A stretch of DNA of 24,525 nt, from positions 1 through 24,525 of the IMG/VR virus record IMGVR_UViG_3300032282_006088; one strand, 5' to 3'. The notes beneath the pieces are model-generated. The model ran no database searches. It was not told where the DNA came from and was given only the letters and a program-made list of their open reading frames with translations. The DNA comes from a virus. Made by a program: the position numbers and the translations under genes. Shown here one piece after another: positions 1 to 19,311 of this stretch (positions within the stretch are counted from its first letter, which is position 1; each line of letters starts with the position of its first letter).

Positions 1-1854
1 TGAAGATCCGCTTGAGCCTGTACTTCCAGAGGATCCCGAACTACCACTAGAACCAGAAGTACCTGGTGTACCGCTTGTGCCTGAAGATCCCGAACTACCG
101 TTTGATCCATTAGATCCTGAGATTCCACTTGTTCCAGATGTTCCTGAAGAAGATCCTATTACTCCAACTGATGTTATAACGAATGAATAGTATGAAGTTC
201 CTTCAGTATACCATTTTATATTATGATTAGTATTATCTAAATTATTTACGTAAATTCTTACTCGCATACGATCTGTTGCAAGAATAGTAGTTGTTGGTAA
301 TACTAAGTCAATTAATGTTTCTACTGGTGTAACTGAATCAACCCATCCAATAAGAGCAGTATTTGTATTTGCAATAAATGTCCCATAGCTAGTTCCAGCA
401 GAATTTGCTAAGTCTATTTGTACGTATGTTTCTATATTGTCATTTGATGCAGGTTTTAGAAAGTGTAAATGGAATCTTTGAGTTCCTCCAGGTATTACGG
501 CAAATCCTAATTCATCAGTAATAAATTCAGACAATAATACATTACTTGATGGACCTAGTAATAGTGCCGAGACCATCTGTTGAGGACTTGCAATAGGTGA
601 TACTGATAATTCTTTATATGATAATGGAGTCTGAGTAACCGATTGATTAAAATAATACACTTGTCCACTTGAGATTCCATCTACTCCATTTATTCCTGAT
701 GTACCAGAACTTCCACTGCTTCCAGATGTCCCACTAGAGCCTGAAGTTCCTGAACTACCGTTTGTACCAGTTGATCCGCTAGACCCTGAACTACCGGCTA
801 AGCCAGAACTTCCACTGCTTCCAGATGAACCATTCAAACCAGAAGTACCACTAGTACCCGAAGATCCAGTCGATCCTGAGCTACCTGAAGAACCGTCAGT
901 ACCTGATGTCCCACTAGAACCTGAGCTTCCATTTATACCAGACGTTCCGCTAGACCCTGAACTACCGGCAGATCCTGCTGATCCACTAGTTCCAGAAGAT
1001 CCACTAGAACCGCTTGATCCTGCTGACCCACTTGAACCTGAGCTTCCGTTAATTCCTGAAGATCCTGATGTACCTGATGTTCCAGTTGTACCACTAGATC
1101 CAGAAGACCCAGTTGATCCACTGGACCCTGAACTACCTGTATTACCGCTTGATCCAGCTGACCCTGATGTACCAGATGAACCACCTATTCCCGACGATCC
1201 TGAAGATCCTGAACTACCGCTTGATCCAGACGTACCCGCTGTGCCAGAAGACCCAGTTGTTCCGCTTGAACCCGAGCTTCCTGTATTACCGCTTGATCCT
1301 GAACTACCATTTATACCAGAAGTACCGCTTGTCCCAGTTGTACCTGAGCTGCCTGAACTTCCATTAGATCCTGAAGATCCTGAGCTACCACTTGATCCTC
1401 GAGTACCGCTTGATCCAGAAGTACCGCCGGTTCCGCTAGAGCCGCTTGATCCATCTGTTCCGGAAGTACCGCTAGAACCATCAGTTCCTGAATCTCCACT
1501 AGAACCAGATGATCCGCTGCTTCCTCTAGTACCTGAACTTCCTGATGTTCCACTTGTGCCTGATCCTCCAGGAACAGTTACAGTTACTGCAGAGCCAACA
1601 TTTGTTGCAGTTACTCCTGGACCTACAAAATTTAGTGATGCTAAGCTGGTAGTCAGCGTAATTCCTTGATCCTTTACAGTGATTGGACTTCCTCCACCTC
1701 CTCCTTCAATTACAGTTATTACCCCATAATGATCAATCTTACATAATTTTCCTGCATTACTCGTATCGAAACCAATTAAATAGGCTCCAATAGGAATTTT
1801 AACATAGTCAATTGTAGTAAAATCTATTATAGGATAAACGTGGCTAACCCCCAT
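1..1854 (-). CDS. Collagen-like phage fibre protein, C-terminus beyond window edge
   Basis: The frame is open from the ATG at 1854 to the left edge (618 codons, no stop), so the gene is partial. Residues 1-94 form a non-repeat head that reads like the N-terminal domain of many phage fibre proteins (GAYLIGFDTSNAGKLCKID, then ITVIEGGGGS). Residues about 94-393 are Gly-X-Y triplets, mostly GSS, GTS and GSSGTDG types, as in collagen-like phage fibres. Residues about 394-568 are an ordinary globular domain, and triplets resume to the window edge. Collagen-like phage proteins usually form trimeric fibres, so a tail fibre or other surface fibre is the likely role, with the globular domain as a receptor-binding or spacer module (inference). 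It is expressed from a late-type box just upstream. Which T4 fibre it corresponds to cannot be told from here. Confidence 0.85.
   Translation of the reverse strand, partial: MGVSHVYPIIDFTTIDYVKIPIGAYLIGFDTSNAGKLCKIDHYGVITVIEGGGGGSPITVKDQGITLTTSLASLNFVGPGVTATNVGSAVTVTVPGGSGTSGTSGSSGTRGSSGSSGSSGDSGTDGSSGTSGTDGSSGSSGTGGTSGSSGTRGSSGSSGSSGSNGSSGSSGTTGTSGTSGINGSSGSSGNTGSSGSSGTTGSSGTAGTSGSSGSSGSSGSSGIGGSSGTSGSAGSSGNTGSSGSSGSTGSSGSSGTTGTSGTSGSSGINGSSGSSGSAGSSGSSGSSGTSGSAGSAGSSGSSGTSGINGSSGSSGTSGTDGSSGSSGSTGSSGTSGTSGLNGSSGSSGSSGLAGSSGSSGSTGTNGSSGTSGSSGTSGSSGSSGTSGINGVDGISSGQVYYFNQSVTQTPLSYKELSVSPIASPQQMVSALLLGPSSNVLLSEFITDELGFAVIPGGTQRFHLHFLKPASNDNIETYVQIDLANSAGTSYGTFIANTNTALIGWVDSVTPVETLIDLVLPTTTILATDRMRVRIYVNNLDNTNHNIKWYTEGTSYYSFVITSVGVIGSSSGTSGTSGISGSNGSNGSSGSSGTSGTPGTSGSSGSSGSSGSTGSSGSS
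676..1573 (-). repeat. Collagen-like Gly-X-Y coding repeat tract
   Basis: This tract encodes about 100 consecutive Gly-X-Y triplets in which X and Y are mostly Ser and Thr, with some Asp, Arg, Leu and Val. At the DNA level it is a degenerate 9-base periodicity with many near-identical GGATCC, CCTGAAC and CCACTAG units. It generates spurious open frames on both strands. A second tract of the same kind occupies 1-150. Such repeats can change length by slippage or recombination and are prone to assembly collapse. Confidence 0.9.
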
Positions 1855-1933: not shown

Positions 1934-2803
1934 ATGGTAATATATCAAGCAAATACATTCGCTGGAGTCTATGAAGAGCTCTTACATGACCTAATGACTG
2001 AACCTGAGTATGTAACTCAGCCTAGGGACATGAAGATTAATGAAATGTGTGATGTCTCTCTAGTTATTGAGAACCCACTATCTTGTCTCTATACTAATCC
2101 ATTTAGATCTTCACAATCTAAATATATTGCAGCAGAATTCCTATGGTATTTTATGGGTCGAAATGATGTAGAATATATCTCAAAATTCGCAAAGTTTTGG
2201 GAATCTATTAAGAATGACGATGATACTGTAAACTCATCATATGGATACCTTCTCTTTAATAACAAGAATGAGCATGGGATAACTCAATATCGCTGGGCAT
2301 TAGAATCATTAGCTAAAGATAAAGATTCACGACAGGCTGTCCTGCACTTTAACCTACCTACCCATCAAAGAGCAGATAATAAAGATTTTGTCTGTACTAT
2401 GTATGGAATATTTCAAATTAGAAATAACAGACTTAACTTTACAGTAAGCATGCGAAGTAATGACGTTATCTTAGGATTACCGACTGATGTAGCCTTCTTT
2501 GTAACTTTACAATCTCAAATGTTATCTCATCTTAAATCCCATGCAAGTTATCCTGAATTAGAACTGGGTACATATACTCATATTGCAAACTCTTCTCATA
2601 TTTATGAGAGACATTTTGAAGTAGCCAAAAAAATGATTACCCGAAAATTTGAACCAGTTGAGATTCCAGCAGTTCATCTAAACTTAATTAAAATTGATGG
2701 CTCACCAACAGGTCAATTTTCATCACTATTTGATGGTCAAGAAGAACCAACGCAATTAACTGATCCTCTATATGATTGGATCCTAAAAAATATAAACTCA
2801 TGA
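1934..2803 (+). CDS. Thymidylate synthase superfamily enzyme, probable dCMP hydroxymethylase
   Basis: The 289-aa protein has the full thymidylate synthase fold signature: an EFLWYFMGRND helix with Glu68, catalytic Cys154, the phosphate-binding Arg174 in MRSND, and a C-terminal SSHIYERH segment. Two positions depart from true thymidylate synthase. The catalytic Cys is followed by Thr (DFVCT) rather than His. The position equal to E. coli ThyA Asn177 is Asp185 (GLPTD, 11 residues after the Arg as in ThyA). T4 dCMP hydroxymethylase gp42 has the same features (DFMCT, MRSNDV, then NDYAW), and that Asp selects cytosine over uracil. The likely reaction is dCMP plus methylene-THF to 5-hydroxymethyl-dCMP. 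The neighbouring dCMP deaminase fits a phage deoxypyrimidine pathway. A thymidylate synthase with altered specificity remains possible. Confidence 0.75.
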   Translation: MVIYQANTFAGVYEELLHDLMTEPEYVTQPRDMKINEMCDVSLVIENPLSCLYTNPFRSSQSKYIAAEFLWYFMGRNDVEYISKFAKFWESIKNDDDTVNSSYGYLLFNNKNEHGITQYRWALESLAKDKDSRQAVLHFNLPTHQRADNKDFVCTMYGIFQIRNNRLNFTVSMRSNDVILGLPTDVAFFVTLQSQMLSHLKSHASYPELELGTYTHIANSSHIYERHFEVAKKMITRKFEPVEIPAVHLNLIKIDGSPTGQFSSLFDGQEEPTQLTDPLYDWILKNINS

Positions 2804-3006
2804 AAAAAGCAATTATCTCAATCATCACACAGGTCATTAAGCTCCTATTACTTTCGCTAATTTGCGACCTAGTATATGAATGGAACGATTTATCTAAAGT
2901 ATTTGGACCTGCAATATCTTATTCACAATGGGTAGGGATAGTCGTAATTATTAATGCAATTGTGCCAAACGGTATTGTTAATCCTAAATCAACTGATGAC
3001 AAATAA
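2800..3006 (+). CDS. Small two-helix membrane protein
   Basis: The start is the ATG in the ATGA overlap with the stop of the preceding gene. An earlier ATG at 2776 in the same frame would overlap more and adds only eight residues. The 68-aa product has two hydrophobic segments: about residues 3-24 (rich in I and L, with KLLLLSLICDLVY) and about residues 39-60 (SQWVGIVVIINAIV). They are separated by a short polar loop, and the tail is polar. I recognise no family. Translational coupling with the enzymes either side suggests co-expression, but the role is unknown. It could be an inner-membrane or superinfection-related protein. Confidence 0.65.
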   Translation: MKKAIISIITQVIKLLLLSLICDLVYEWNDLSKVFGPAISYSQWVGIVVIINAIVPNGIVNPKSTDDK

Positions 3007-3416: not shown

Positions 3417-3815
3417 ATGGAAAAAAGAAAAATATCACTAGTCTTTGTAAAAGATTATAAAAGCTTTATCCTAACTTTTAATAAGAAAGATAAAAGTGAC
3501 TATATCCTAAATGTAAGTAAATTAATAAAGGACAAGTTCAGTACAAAATTTATTATTCCAAATAAAGTACAATCCTTTCTCTTAAATTATGAAATTAAAA
3601 AACTATTAGATAAGGCAATTACAGTTAAGAATGAAAAATACGATCAAATAATCTATTTAAACTCAAACTTATCTACTGTAAGTATTTTGAATACAATTGA
3701 TTTTATATCTGAAGAGTATCCAGATTTTGATTTTGAATATCAATTAATTGCTCCAACCTCTGACCCAGAGCCACTCGACATTTCAGATACCCTAATTAAA
3801 AAAATAGTCATTTAA
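3417..3815 (+). CDS. Hypothetical protein, 132 aa
   Basis: The ATG lies one base after the dCMP deaminase stop, so the gene is the last member of that unit, and a strong hairpin follows its stop. The protein is Lys/Ile-rich in its first half. Its second half reads like alternating beta strand and helix (KYDQIIYLNSN, then ISEEYPDFDFEYQLIAP). I recognise no motif or family. The lack of a signal peptide or membrane segment suggests a cytoplasmic protein. Position suggests an early gene linked to nucleotide metabolism, but no function can be assigned. Confidence 0.75.
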   Translation: MEKRKISLVFVKDYKSFILTFNKKDKSDYILNVSKLIKDKFSTKFIIPNKVQSFLLNYEIKKLLDKAITVKNEKYDQIIYLNSNLSTVSILNTIDFISEEYPDFDFEYQLIAPTSDPEPLDISDTLIKKIVI

Positions 3816-9129: not shown

Positions 9130-9864
9130 ATGAAAGCAATTAAAAAATACGTATCTTCTCTTCCAATCGGAGTAAAATACTTGGTTTCAATAAACTTACT
9201 AGTTTATGTATTAACACTAGTTACTTACTACTGTGCTAGTATTAATTTGACAAATTACTTTGGAGCTTATCCTACTTATTCTGAGTATTTTAATCCTCTT
9301 GCGATAATTACTAGTGGATTCACTCACTCTATCAATTTTACTCATATCCTATTCAATCTTTTACTATTTTTAATCTTTGCTCCATCAATCGAAGTAAAAT
9401 TTGGAACCAGAAATATCATTTTAATCTATGTATTATGTGGAATCGTTGGATACACCACTACTAATTATGCATACCACCAAAACAAACAAAAGATCGAGCA
9501 GTCTCTTTCTGCACTACATATTAAACCATCTACTATTGAGATAAAAGATCACAGAGTATCGCAAGAGTACTTATCTACTCTTGATGAAAGTGACATAGCA
9601 ATTGTTAAAAAGTACAATCTAGTGATCTCTAAGACATATGGCGCATCTTCTGCTCTTTATGGAATTATTGCAATCTATTTGCTATTGAACTTTGCTAACT
9701 TAAAAAAGGTAGGCTTTACTTTACTTGCTGCATACTGTATAGGAGTTACATTATTTAGCATATTTACGAATACGAATATTCTTGATGGTAGTGATTATGC
9801 TCATATTGGAGGATTCACAACTGGCTTAATTTTCATACTAATCAAAAAAGCATCACACAAGTGA
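9130..9864 (+). CDS. Rhomboid-family intramembrane serine protease
   Basis: The 244-aa polytopic membrane protein carries the rhomboid signature. There is a His-rich segment with Asn at the start of the second core helix (FTHSINFTHILFN, His66, His72, Asn76), the catalytic Ser in GASSALYG (Ser173), and the catalytic His in AHIGGF (His225). These residues form the Ser-His dyad that cleaves substrate transmembrane helices. A soluble insertion of about 55 residues (about 115-168) separates the third helix from the catalytic Ser helix. The gene stands alone on the plus strand between late minus-strand genes, with its own hairpin terminator. Rhomboids are widespread in cells but unusual in phages. 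Targets could be host inner-membrane proteins (inference). Confidence 0.9.
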   Translation: MKAIKKYVSSLPIGVKYLVSINLLVYVLTLVTYYCASINLTNYFGAYPTYSEYFNPLAIITSGFTHSINFTHILFNLLLFLIFAPSIEVKFGTRNIILIYVLCGIVGYTTTNYAYHQNKQKIEQSLSALHIKPSTIEIKDHRVSQEYLSTLDESDIAIVKKYNLVISKTYGASSALYGIIAIYLLLNFANLKKVGFTLLAAYCIGVTLFSIFTNTNILDGSDYAHIGGFTTGLIFILIKKASHK

Positions 9865-10339: not shown

Positions 10340-11134
10340 ATGCCAGAACTAGCAGAAATAAAAATAATGGCGGATTTTATAAATTCAGCCTGTGAGAAAA
10401 AAGATTTTACCTCAATTGCTTTTTCAGAAAGCGCAATGAGTCGTAAACTAGGAATTGTCCAACCTACTGATCTTCAGATATTCAGTATCCGTGCTGAGTC
10501 TAGAGGTAAAGAGTTATTGCTCTCGTTAATTCAAGGAGGTAGAGTCTTTGTAAAGATTAGTTGTTCAATGGGCATGTCTGGTCATTGGGCTCTATGTCAC
10601 CGTGACCATATGCCAAAGCATACTCACATGAAATTTAGTAGTATTGATCACTATAGTTTATGTTTAGTTGACACTCGTCGATTTGCTAGATGGCGAGTAG
10701 TTGAGGAGTGGTCTACTAATCGCGGACCGTGTCCAGTAATGGAACCTAATCAATTTCGAGAAAATATCCTACTTAATCTACATAAGAAAGAATTTGATAA
10801 ACCTATTCATCTTGTGCTCATGAATCAACTATATTTCAATGGAATAGGCAACTATCTCAGAGCTGAGATCCTCTTTCATGCAGCACAAGATCCTTTTATT
10901 GAAGCTCGTACTGCAATTACTATAAATCCTGCAATACTTGAGTTATGCGAACAGCTACCGAGGGAAGCTTATGTGCTAGGTGGAGGCCAACTAAAAGATT
11001 GGAAAAATCCATTTGAGGCTCCAGCCGGAGGCTTTGATGAATGGATGCAGTGTTATGGAAAAGGCAAATGGTTTACTGACAAGAATGGTCGACGAATGTG
11101 GTATCATGAGAGTCAACTTGAAACCTCTCACTAA
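10340..11134 (+). CDS. Fpg/Nei-family DNA glycosylase, zincless type
   Basis: This 264-aa base-excision repair enzyme keeps the processed N-terminus MPEL with catalytic Pro2 and Glu3, a following Glu6, and the helix-two-turn-helix motif GIGNYLRAEILF. It lacks the Cys4 zinc finger of bacterial Fpg. The C-terminus (MQCYGKGKWFTDKNGRRMWY) has a single Cys and an Arg-containing hairpin like the zincless finger of NEIL1, plant Fpg and mimivirus Nei. It probably removes oxidised bases and cleaves the abasic site. It opens the plus-strand run that continues with helicase and topoisomerase genes. Whether its substrate relates to the modified cytosine suggested at 1934 is unknown. Confidence 0.88.
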   Translation: MPELAEIKIMADFINSACEKKDFTSIAFSESAMSRKLGIVQPTDLQIFSIRAESRGKELLLSLIQGGRVFVKISCSMGMSGHWALCHRDHMPKHTHMKFSSIDHYSLCLVDTRRFARWRVVEEWSTNRGPCPVMEPNQFRENILLNLHKKEFDKPIHLVLMNQLYFNGIGNYLRAEILFHAAQDPFIEARTAITINPAILELCEQLPREAYVLGGGQLKDWKNPFEAPAGGFDEWMQCYGKGKWFTDKNGRRMWYHESQLETSH

Positions 11135-18170: not shown

Positions 18171-18872
18171 TTAAATTTTTATTTTATATGCAGTTGTCTT
18201 AGCGACTCCTTTTAACGCCTTTAGTGGTTCACATGAGTGTAACTGTAATTCTGAAAGTAGTCGACCGCTTCGTTTACGTTTACCTTCCCAACATCGTTGC
18301 TGATAATCAATAATTTCGAGTGTACGACTCTTTTTAGAAACAAGTTCTTCAATCTTATTTTCCTCATCTTTAGGTAAAGTATCAGTAAAACTAAAAGACA
18401 CGTATCCAGGTTCAGAGACAGTTGACTCCATTCTAGATGCAGTGTTTACCGTATTTCCAAAATAGTCCCATAACTTCTTACCTTGAATATCAGTCTGCTT
18501 TTTATATAGTGGACCCCAACAGATTCCTAATCGAATCGTCATACTCGTATCCTTAATCTTAATTGGATCGTCTTTAAGGTTTTCTTGTATCTCCATACCT
18601 GCCTCTACTGCTCTAAGTAGAGAGTCCTTTCCTTCGAAACTTACCATATAACTATCACCAATTGTCTTTACTATCATTCCATTGAATTTTGAGACAATCT
18701 TTGTCATTCTTTTACCATGGTCTTCTAGTGCATCAAACATGCCAGAGTGGTGTAGCTTCCACAATTTAGAACTAGACTTAACATCCGTAAAAAGTATTGC
18801 CTGTTCTTTTTCTTCAAGCTTTTTTAGAGAGTCTATACTTTCCCAAATTGGATATGAAACTAAATATTTCAT
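18171..18872 (-). CDS. Class III nucleotidyl (adenylate) cyclase with capsid-targeting-like N-terminus
   Basis: The 233-aa protein has one class III cyclase homology domain (about 24-165). All catalytic residues are visible: metal-binding Asp30 (FTDVKSSS) and Asp73 (KTIGDSYM), adenine-selecting Lys69 and Asp136 (LWDYFGN), and transition-state Asn143 and Arg147 (TVNTASRMES). The Lys/Asp pair predicts ATP to cAMP. The start at 18872 is preferred over in-frame starts at 18890 and 18896 because MKYLVSYPIW then aligns residue by residue with the starts of the 520-aa and 126-aa late proteins. The C-terminal 45 residues are basic and end in LKALKGVAKTTAYKI, vaguely helix-hairpin-helix-like. It shares a late unit with the DUF5856 gene. 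Packaging in the head is inferred. Class III cyclases normally work as dimers. Confidence 0.85.
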   Translation of the reverse strand: MKYLVSYPIWESIDSLKKLEEKEQAILFTDVKSSSKLWKLHHSGMFDALEDHGKRMTKIVSKFNGMIVKTIGDSYMVSFEGKDSLLRAVEAGMEIQENLKDDPIKIKDTSMTIRLGICWGPLYKKQTDIQGKKLWDYFGNTVNTASRMESTVSEPGYVSFSFTDTLPKDEENKIEELVSKKSRTLEIIDYQQRCWEGKRKRSGRLLSELQLHSCEPLKALKGVAKTTAYKIKI

Positions 18873-18902
18873 TGATCGATGATCTTGCATATTCAATTCT
18901 AA

Positions 18903-19271
18903 TTATTTTAGAGTTAGTAAATATTTAAGCTTATTAATTGCAGCTAACATCTCATCTCTAAGGTTTAATAGATCACTGTCCTTGTTACCATCTAGCTTAT
19001 GATTAAAAGATAATAAGAATTCTACAATAGTGTCCAGGAATTCCTCTATATTAACTTCTCCAATATTTCCTAGGAGAATAGCATCTGTTTCTCCTTCTAG
19101 AGCAACTCTACCATATTTACCCATATAGATTTCCATAAAATCGTCAGATAACGCACCAATCGTATCATATATTCCGCCATATGCTATATGTTTAGAATAA
19201 GATTGTGTTTGCCAGTGAAATACTTTAAATTGAGATTGAATCCCTAAGAAGGTAGACATTAAACTTGTCAT
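18903..19271 (-). CDS. DUF5856-like, Dps/ferritin-like helical protein
   Basis: The product is 122 aa from the ATG at 19271. A longer frame from a TTG at 19310 would run through the late promoter and is rejected. The sequence FKVFHWQTQSYSKHIAYGG, followed by IYDTIGALSDDFMEIYMG, has the helix-loop-helix layout and His/Asp/Glu spacing of Dps-like ferritin folds. It corresponds to the phage family DUF5856. Iron binding or DNA protection is possible but not shown. It is the promoter-proximal gene of the unit that contains the cyclase, 30 bases upstream of the chosen cyclase ATG. Confidence 0.75.
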   Translation of the reverse strand: MTSLMSTFLGIQSQFKVFHWQTQSYSKHIAYGGIYDTIGALSDDFMEIYMGKYGRVALEGETDAILLGNIGEVNIEEFLDTIVEFLLSFNHKLDGNKDSDLLNLRDEMLAAINKLKYLLTLK

Positions 19272-19283
19272 AATTTCTATAAG

Positions 19284-19300
19284 TTTTTTATTATTTATCT
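19284..19300 (-). promoter_or_regulatory. Putative late promoter of the DUF5856-cyclase unit
   Basis: On the minus strand it reads AGATAAATAATAAAAAA, identical to the boxes at 6834 and 10289, and lies 12 bases before the ATG at 19271. Confidence 0.7.
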
Positions 19301-19311
19301 CTATAAACAAA

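Follow-up and report, generated by a model that had tools for sequence, protein, structure and literature searches.

A predicted dCMP 5-hydroxymethylase of the T4 gp42 kind heads an overlapping gene cassette in uncultured T4-like phages

The stretch of DNA analysed in this study (24,525 nt; hereafter, the window) is one whole virus record, IMGVR_UViG_3300032282_006088. It carries T4-type genes for topoisomerase II subunits, the major head protein, the head protease, a tail-tube-like protein and a tail fibre with collagen repeats, and no tRNA was found in the window. An open reading frame that starts with ATG at 1934 and ends with a stop codon at 2801-2803 was confirmed to be real and in frame, and its product matched the Pfam Thymidylat_synt family (E 3.5e-25). 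This gene, predicted to encode a dCMP 5-hydroxymethylase, heads an overlapping cassette that is new here and continues with genes for a small hydrophobic protein, a dCMP deaminase and a 132-aa protein (Table 1). The site directly upstream of the cassette is often occupied by opposite-strand genes, which in the window is the collagen-like fibre gene. The window also encodes a rhomboid-type membrane protease and, in what is predicted to be a phage with modified cytosine, a homologue of Fpg/Nei-type DNA glycosylases. A class III adenylate/guanylate cyclase domain, which to our knowledge is unusual in a phage, was found next to a DUF5856 protein.

Table 1. Genes and key codons of the window.
Feature	Position	Strand	Basis or remark
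Collagen-repeat tail fibre	1-1854	-	Relatives carry other opposite-strand genes or none there
TS-superfamily protein, predicted dCMP 5-hydroxymethylase, 289 aa	1934-2803	+	Homology, alignment, model
Glu68 codon (T4 Glu60, E. coli Glu58), catalytic	2135-2137	+	Alignment
Ser101-x-Tyr103 codons (T4 Ser94, Tyr96)	2234-2242	+	Alignment
Asp151-Phe-Val-Cys154-Thr155 codons: predicted water-activating Asp at Cys-3, nucleophile Cys, Thr next	2384-2398	+	Aligned to T4 Asp145, Cys148, Thr149
Ser175-Asn-Asp177 codons of RSND motif (T4 Ser169, Asp171)	2456-2464	+	Alignment
Asp185 codon (E. coli Asn177, T4 Asp179), predicted cytosine-selecting residue	2486-2488	+	Alignment
Hydrophobic 68-aa ORF, predicted membrane protein	2800-3006	+	ATGA overlap with hydroxymethylase stop
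dCMP deaminase, zinc motifs HAE and PCxxC, 139 aa	2996-3415	+	Longest frame from 2954
132-aa conserved protein, last cassette gene	3417-3815	+	Next after deaminase in most relatives
Rhomboid-type membrane protease	9130-9864	+	PF01694, E 2.3e-15
Fpg/Nei-type DNA glycosylase homologue	10340-11134	+	PF01149, E 1.5e-13
Class III adenylate/guanylate cyclase domain	18171-18896	-	PF00211, E 3.7e-21
DUF5856 protein (PHROG starvation-inducible regulator)	18903-19310	-	Between cyclase and head protein

Relatives of the thymidylate synthase (TS)-superfamily protein are encoded in 278 IMG/VR stretches, from which 80 loci (54-100% identical) were taken, and the nearest named phage record was LR756500.1, an unannotated 462-kb uncultured phage whose protein is 52% identical. 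The family set consisted of 82 sequences, that is, the window and 81 loci that are 52-100% identical to the window protein and include some near-copies. Gene content was searched in 22 relatives, namely LR756500.1 and 21 IMG/VR records that were picked by length out of 80 IMG/VR loci and are nearly all fragments, with T4 and Xp15 as controls. These 24 records were scanned with profiles for ThyA (PF00303), ThyX (PF02511), beta-glucosyltransferase (PF09198), gp1-like kinase (phrog_139), gp56-like dCTPase (phrog_173), carbamoyltransferase (PF02543), dUTPase (phrog_135), glycosyltransferase families 2 and 1 (PF00535 and PF00534) and AGT (PF11440). One relative's contig was binned with Bacteroidetes and others with Aenigmatarchaeota and Gammaproteobacteria; since these bins disagree, binning does not settle the host. 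A literature search covering titles and the starts of abstracts returned nothing recognised as describing this phage lineage, and a passage of PMC7824862 in general terms credits jumbo phages that have special TS enzymes with the ability to make hydroxymethylcytosine.

The small hydrophobic ORF, which also overlaps the probable start of the dCMP deaminase gene (2996), is found at the same place in 79 of the 81 informative family members (the 82 less one that ends too soon), and the best 19-residue Kyte-Doolittle mean was at least 1.6 in all 79. It is missing in the other two (L078 and LR756500.1) and in a 254-kb contig, where the deaminase is coupled directly to the hydroxymethylase. Its best PHROG match was phrog_2169, 'membrane protein', with an E-value of only 0.0019. 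In T4, imm adjoins the hydroxymethylase gene as the small ORF does in the window; a profile of 51 distinct copies of the ORF scored T4 Imm at -2.5 bits, and homology is not claimed. The start of the deaminase was set at the ATG at 2996 on the basis of its length in relatives (139 aa in G001). The deaminase gene is the downstream neighbour in 76 of the 77 loci with at least 1.2 kb of sequence, the exception being LR756500.1, in which it does not lie beside the TS gene, and the 132-aa protein matched no known family. In G001, the hydroxymethylase gene closes a replication operon after gp56-like, polymerase, UvsX-like, gp41-like helicase, SbcD-like and SbcC-like genes, and the other relatives displayed have the same order over the extent of their loci. 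The placement of a deaminase beside the predicted hydroxymethylase would fit a need to split dCMP between hydroxymethyl-dCMP and dUMP.

The initial annotation had placed Asp185 at the position of E. coli ThyA Asn177 and had noted that the catalytic Cys154 is followed by Thr, exactly as in T4 gp42. Both assignments were borne out by an alignment with record sequences of E. coli ThyA, T4 gp42, T4 td and other references, in which Cys154 aligned to E. coli Cys146 and Thr155 to His147; the match to T4 gp42 covers both the Cys-Thr pair and the Asp. These three residues, and Asp151 at Cys-3, which had gone unmentioned, are identical in 82 of 82 family sequences (some of them near-copies); such identity of the Cys, Thr and Asp shows that they have been kept by selection and not by chance. 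The statement that the Asp switches the preference to cytosine also agrees with mutational work cited in passages of PMC8670742 and PMC6400193, where Asp at 177 selects cytosine and marks TS genes on cytosine-modified contigs; according to the former, positions 177 and 147 best separate such genes from others. As proof of hydroxymethylation the two residues are insufficient, because a dCMP 5-hydroxylase shares both and because Asn-to-Asp mutants of ordinary TS are dCMP methylases (cited in a passage of PMC8670742). The hydroxymethylase reading of the initial annotation nonetheless stands, since it is supported by further signature residues and by genome context.

According to passages of a crystal and mutant study of T4 dCMP hydroxymethylase (T4 dCH), the signature of hydroxymethylation is Asp at Cys-3 together with Ser-x-Tyr; activity was lost in D145N, no product was formed by Y96F or S94N, and S94A retained about a quarter (PMC6400193). 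The T4 dCH letter is present in the window protein at Glu60, Ser94, Tyr96, Arg123, Asp145, Cys148, Thr149, Ser169, Asp171, Asp179, His216 and Tyr218, the last two being matched by its HIY, and its Ser175 fits deoxyribose. Folate and phosphate contacts of the T4 enzyme are changed at Arg124 (Gln134 in the window), Arg177 (Pro183), Arg59 (Ala), Asn53 (Gln), Ile81 (Phe) and Phe174 (Leu); since Arg124, Arg177, Arg59 and Asn53 vary in the other tabulated Asp-type phage homologues as well, they were not treated as defining. The window protein departs from ThyA in having Asp for Asn177, Thr for His147 and Asp for Leu143, and the ThyA-type C-terminal tail is absent, the end of the protein in the window and the relatives printed being unlike those of three ThyA rows. 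It has neither the Asn at 177 nor the Asn after Cys of the SPO1 type, and carries Arg133 and Ser175 in place of Lys133 and Ala176, the ribose-type letters of MilA (a passage of PMC5175136). It also has none of the AfhB-type letters (Glu at Cys-3, Thr-x-Tyr, RSxN and HxF), which were drawn from two Mosigvirus-type sequences and are not proven to define activity.

Comparisons of the whole protein gave a similar picture. Among solved structures, phmmer ranked T4 dCH (1b49, E 1.9e-20) and MilA (2.8e-20) ahead of every ThyA (1.1e-11 or weaker). The family profile, which itself contains T4 gp42, scored T4 dCH at 240 bits, MilA at 157 and ThyA at 100.2 or less. An AlphaFold2 model built from 40 family rows (mean pLDDT 94, pTM 0.92) matched MilA (8e-19) and T4 dCH (6e-15) in a Foldseek search of the PDB, followed by ThyA and AfhB from about 3e-14. 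VIA-align with the same model gave Z scores of 28.9 for MilA, 23.4 for AfhB and at most 21.9 for ThyA; T4 dCH, present in the Foldseek listing, was not among the 50 VIA-align matches listed. The model also matched a viral structure named as a 408-aa deaminase-domain protein, which may be a TS-deaminase fusion. In a tree with long branches, the window clade was grouped with T4 gp42 and Xp15, apart from ThyA and the dUMP hydroxymethylases, with support of 96/93. Taken with the residues, these comparisons indicate that the product of the ORF is very probably a T4 gp42-type dCMP 5-hydroxymethylase, and that it is a new case of a known kind of enzyme is well supported.

If so, catalysis would proceed as follows. 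Cys154 would attack C6 of dCMP while Asp185 holds and protonates the cytosine; methylene-tetrahydrofolate, opened with the help of Glu68, would donate one carbon to C5; and the exocyclic methylene would be attacked not by hydride but by a water bound through Ser101, Tyr103 and Asp151, to give 5-hydroxymethyl-dCMP. The phage would use this product in place of dCMP, and its DNA probably contains hydroxymethylcytosine. A gp56-like dCTPase, encoded upstream in the operon of relatives, would remove dCTP, and the coupled dCMP deaminase would send the remaining dCMP to dUMP and dTMP, the latter coming either from the host or from a separate ThyA or ThyX.

The initial annotation had proposed a search for partner genes, and in the relatives this turned up a separate ThyA or ThyX in 4 of 22, a dCTPase in 12 of 21 and a T4-type glucosyltransferase in 1 of 22, but not the gp1-like kinase. 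The Asp-type gene was present in 22 of 22 relatives. G002 and G020 have a second, canonical ThyA, and G005 and LR756500.1 have ThyX; in the remaining 18, nearly all fragments, neither was seen. The ThyX match in LR756500.1 (about 276524-278152, minus strand) falls in two separated pieces of a single 577-aa frame, which may be split by an intein or another insert. On the 254-kb contig of the Bacteroidetes bin, the Asp-type gene, dCMP deaminase, 132-aa gene, canonical ThyA, gp56-like dCTPase and ribonucleotide reductase genes are all present. The gp56-like dCTPase is absent from the window fragment; the 12 of 21 IMG/VR relatives that have it include the nearest one and every one of the eight members scored in the 99/99 clade of the window, some of them near-copies. 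A trimeric dUTPase was found in 5 of the 21 IMG/VR relatives and in LR756500.1, never together with the gp56-like dCTPase in one relative; the four of 21 that have neither (G006, G014, G020 and G021) lie on contigs that, in this direction, stop no more than about 13 kb from the gene. Repeated replacement between the two was considered; the tree needs four changes, well-supported branches force only one, and the idea is not claimed.

As for enzymes acting after hydroxymethylation, LR756500.1 carries a T4-type beta-glucosyltransferase (BGT) gene 1.4 kb from the TS gene on the same strand (81.7 bits against a Pfam cut-off of 27). None was found in the other 21 of the 22 relatives, AGT and carbamoyltransferase were found in 0 of 22, and gp1-like kinase gave only P-loop-sized matches below 20 bits in 5 of 22 (T4 control, 225 bits), these relatives being mostly fragments. 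No known glucosyltransferase was found in the window's own clade. Five of the 22 relatives gave a match to glycosyltransferase family 2, and two to family 1. The family-2 genes upstream of TS in L042 and L058 most resemble O-antigen GtrB or a beta-1,4-glycosyltransferase, and no family-2 match was found in the window's clade (G001, G003, G009, G010, G012, G013, G015 and G016); they were therefore not counted as DNA glycosyltransferases. A 176-kb relative matched none of four glycosyltransferase families, and the 254-kb contig matched no glycosyltransferase query tried.

Other activities of the superfamily were weighed against dCMP hydroxymethylation. If the enzyme were instead a flavin-dependent 5-hydroxylase of dCMP (5-hydroxy-dCMP synthase), like those of the AfhB/Mosigvirus kind, the DNA would carry 5-hydroxycytosine or its sugar ether. 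AfhB has the same fold, the Cys-Thr pair and Asp at 177, its VIA-align score exceeds that of ThyA, and the Mosigvirus-type synthase belongs to the same superfamily (a passage of PMC13390438; titles of PDB 9iqc and 9iqu). A table of 22 T4 sites, in which two Mosigvirus-type sequences depart from T4 at 11, on balance speaks against this enzyme. Of the 11, the window protein agrees with T4 at five, comprising all the catalytic ones (Ser94, Asp145, Asp171 and Tyr218) and Trp82; it has the Mosigvirus letter, in favour of the 5-hydroxylase, at two (Arg59 and Val85) and neither letter at four (Asn53, Ile81, Phe174 and Arg177), the folate contacts being mixed. In the phmmer search, T4 dCH gave an E-value nine orders lower than AfhB did, and the T4 homologue of the BGT of LR756500.1 glucosylates hydroxymethylcytosine. 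We thus regard a 5-hydroxylase as improbable. A dCMP methylase, giving 5-methyl-dCMP and 5-methylcytosine DNA as in phage XP12, would account for Asp185, given the effect of Asn-to-Asp in ordinary TS mentioned above; it is made very improbable by the Asp in place of Leu at E. coli 143 and by the missing C-terminal tail, which in ThyA closes off the site.

Two further readings involve dUMP. An ordinary phage dTMP synthase that tolerates Asp185 would agree with the name given by Pfam and PHROGs, with the adjoining deaminase as a supplier of dUMP and with the 18 of 22 relatives, mostly fragments, in which no other ThyA or ThyX was seen. Asp185 in all 82 sequences, Thr155 for His and Asp151 argue against it, as do the relatives that have ThyX or a second, canonical ThyA with the Asn, His and Leu letters, and we give it very little weight. 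A dUMP hydroxymethylase of the SPO1 kind, leading to hydroxymethyluracil DNA, shares Asp at Cys-3, and SPO1 gp29 was among the homologues found; since SPO1 gp29 and PaMx11, both at 177 and directly after the Cys, carry Asn where the window protein carries Asp and Thr, and since the two form a separate tree group (99/98), this reading is hardly to be expected. dCMP hydroxymethylation therefore remains the preferred reading.

Which restriction and CRISPR defences a phage can evade depends on base modification, as does the possibility of cutting or sequencing its DNA by ordinary means. If the prediction is true, a phage lineage of many metagenomes has modified DNA hidden by automated 'thymidylate synthase' labels. 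The warning in the initial annotation that a ThyA label would hide the enzyme applies to Pfam and PHROGs, which both say thymidylate synthase, but not to NCBIfam, whose ThyA cut-off the window protein did not reach (best 70.8 against 327 bits). As a practical rule, Asp at Cys-3, Ser-x-Tyr, RSxD and HxY should be checked besides Asp at 177 and Cys-Thr, which dCMP 5-hydroxylases also have. The conserved gene for a small hydrophobic protein that separates the hydroxymethylase and deaminase genes may be an unstudied part of the pathway. Tentatively, and with more doubt than confidence, we propose that hydroxymethylcytosine takes the place of cytosine in a large lineage of uncultured T4-like phages, probably with jumbo members among them, by means of this compact cassette (dCMP hydroxymethylase, coupled small membrane protein, dCMP deaminase and 132-aa protein), which is not seen in T4. 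The small protein may tether a dNTP-making complex to the membrane or serve superinfection exclusion. Since the 176-kb and 254-kb relatives matched none of the glycosyltransferase queries applied to them, the base may stay bare or bear a modification made by an unknown enzyme.

Among known systems, E. coli ThyA shares the superfamily and the catalytic Cys and Glu, but has Asn177, His147, Leu143 and a hydrophobic C-terminal tail. The AfhB/Mosigvirus 5-hydroxy-dCMP synthase (PDB 9iqc and 9iqu) shares the fold, Cys-Thr and Asp at 177, and differs in its own Glu for Asp145, Thr for Ser94, RSQN for RSND, Phe for Tyr218 and Ala for Trp82. MilA, a CMP 5-hydroxymethylase (PDB 5jnh and 5b6d), was the best structural match, with 270 residues aligned, and has Asp at 177, Cys-Thr and Asp at Cys-3; its Lys133 and Ala176 serve ribose, whereas the Arg133 and Ser175 of the window protein are as in deoxyribonucleotide enzymes. 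The TS homologue of Xanthomonas phage Xp15 and the MetaGPA TS genes of cytosine-modified contigs have Asp at 177, Cys-Thr, Ser-x-Tyr and a dCMP deaminase as the next gene; Xp15 has a carbamoyltransferase nearby, unlike the 22 relatives. T4 gp42 (PDB 1b49 and 6a9a) has the same fold and the same catalytic and specificity letters, and the T4 genome likewise holds a dCMP deaminase and a gp56 dCTPase, the latter found on the window side in relatives. The two proteins are 27% identical; that of the window exceeds T4 gp42 by 43 residues, its C-terminal part can be aligned to MilA, and it has Gln134 for T4 Arg124 along with other changed folate contacts. A gp1-like kinase, present in T4, was not found among the 22 relatives, and the hydroxymethylase and deaminase genes, far apart in T4, are neighbours in nearly all the loci of the window family.
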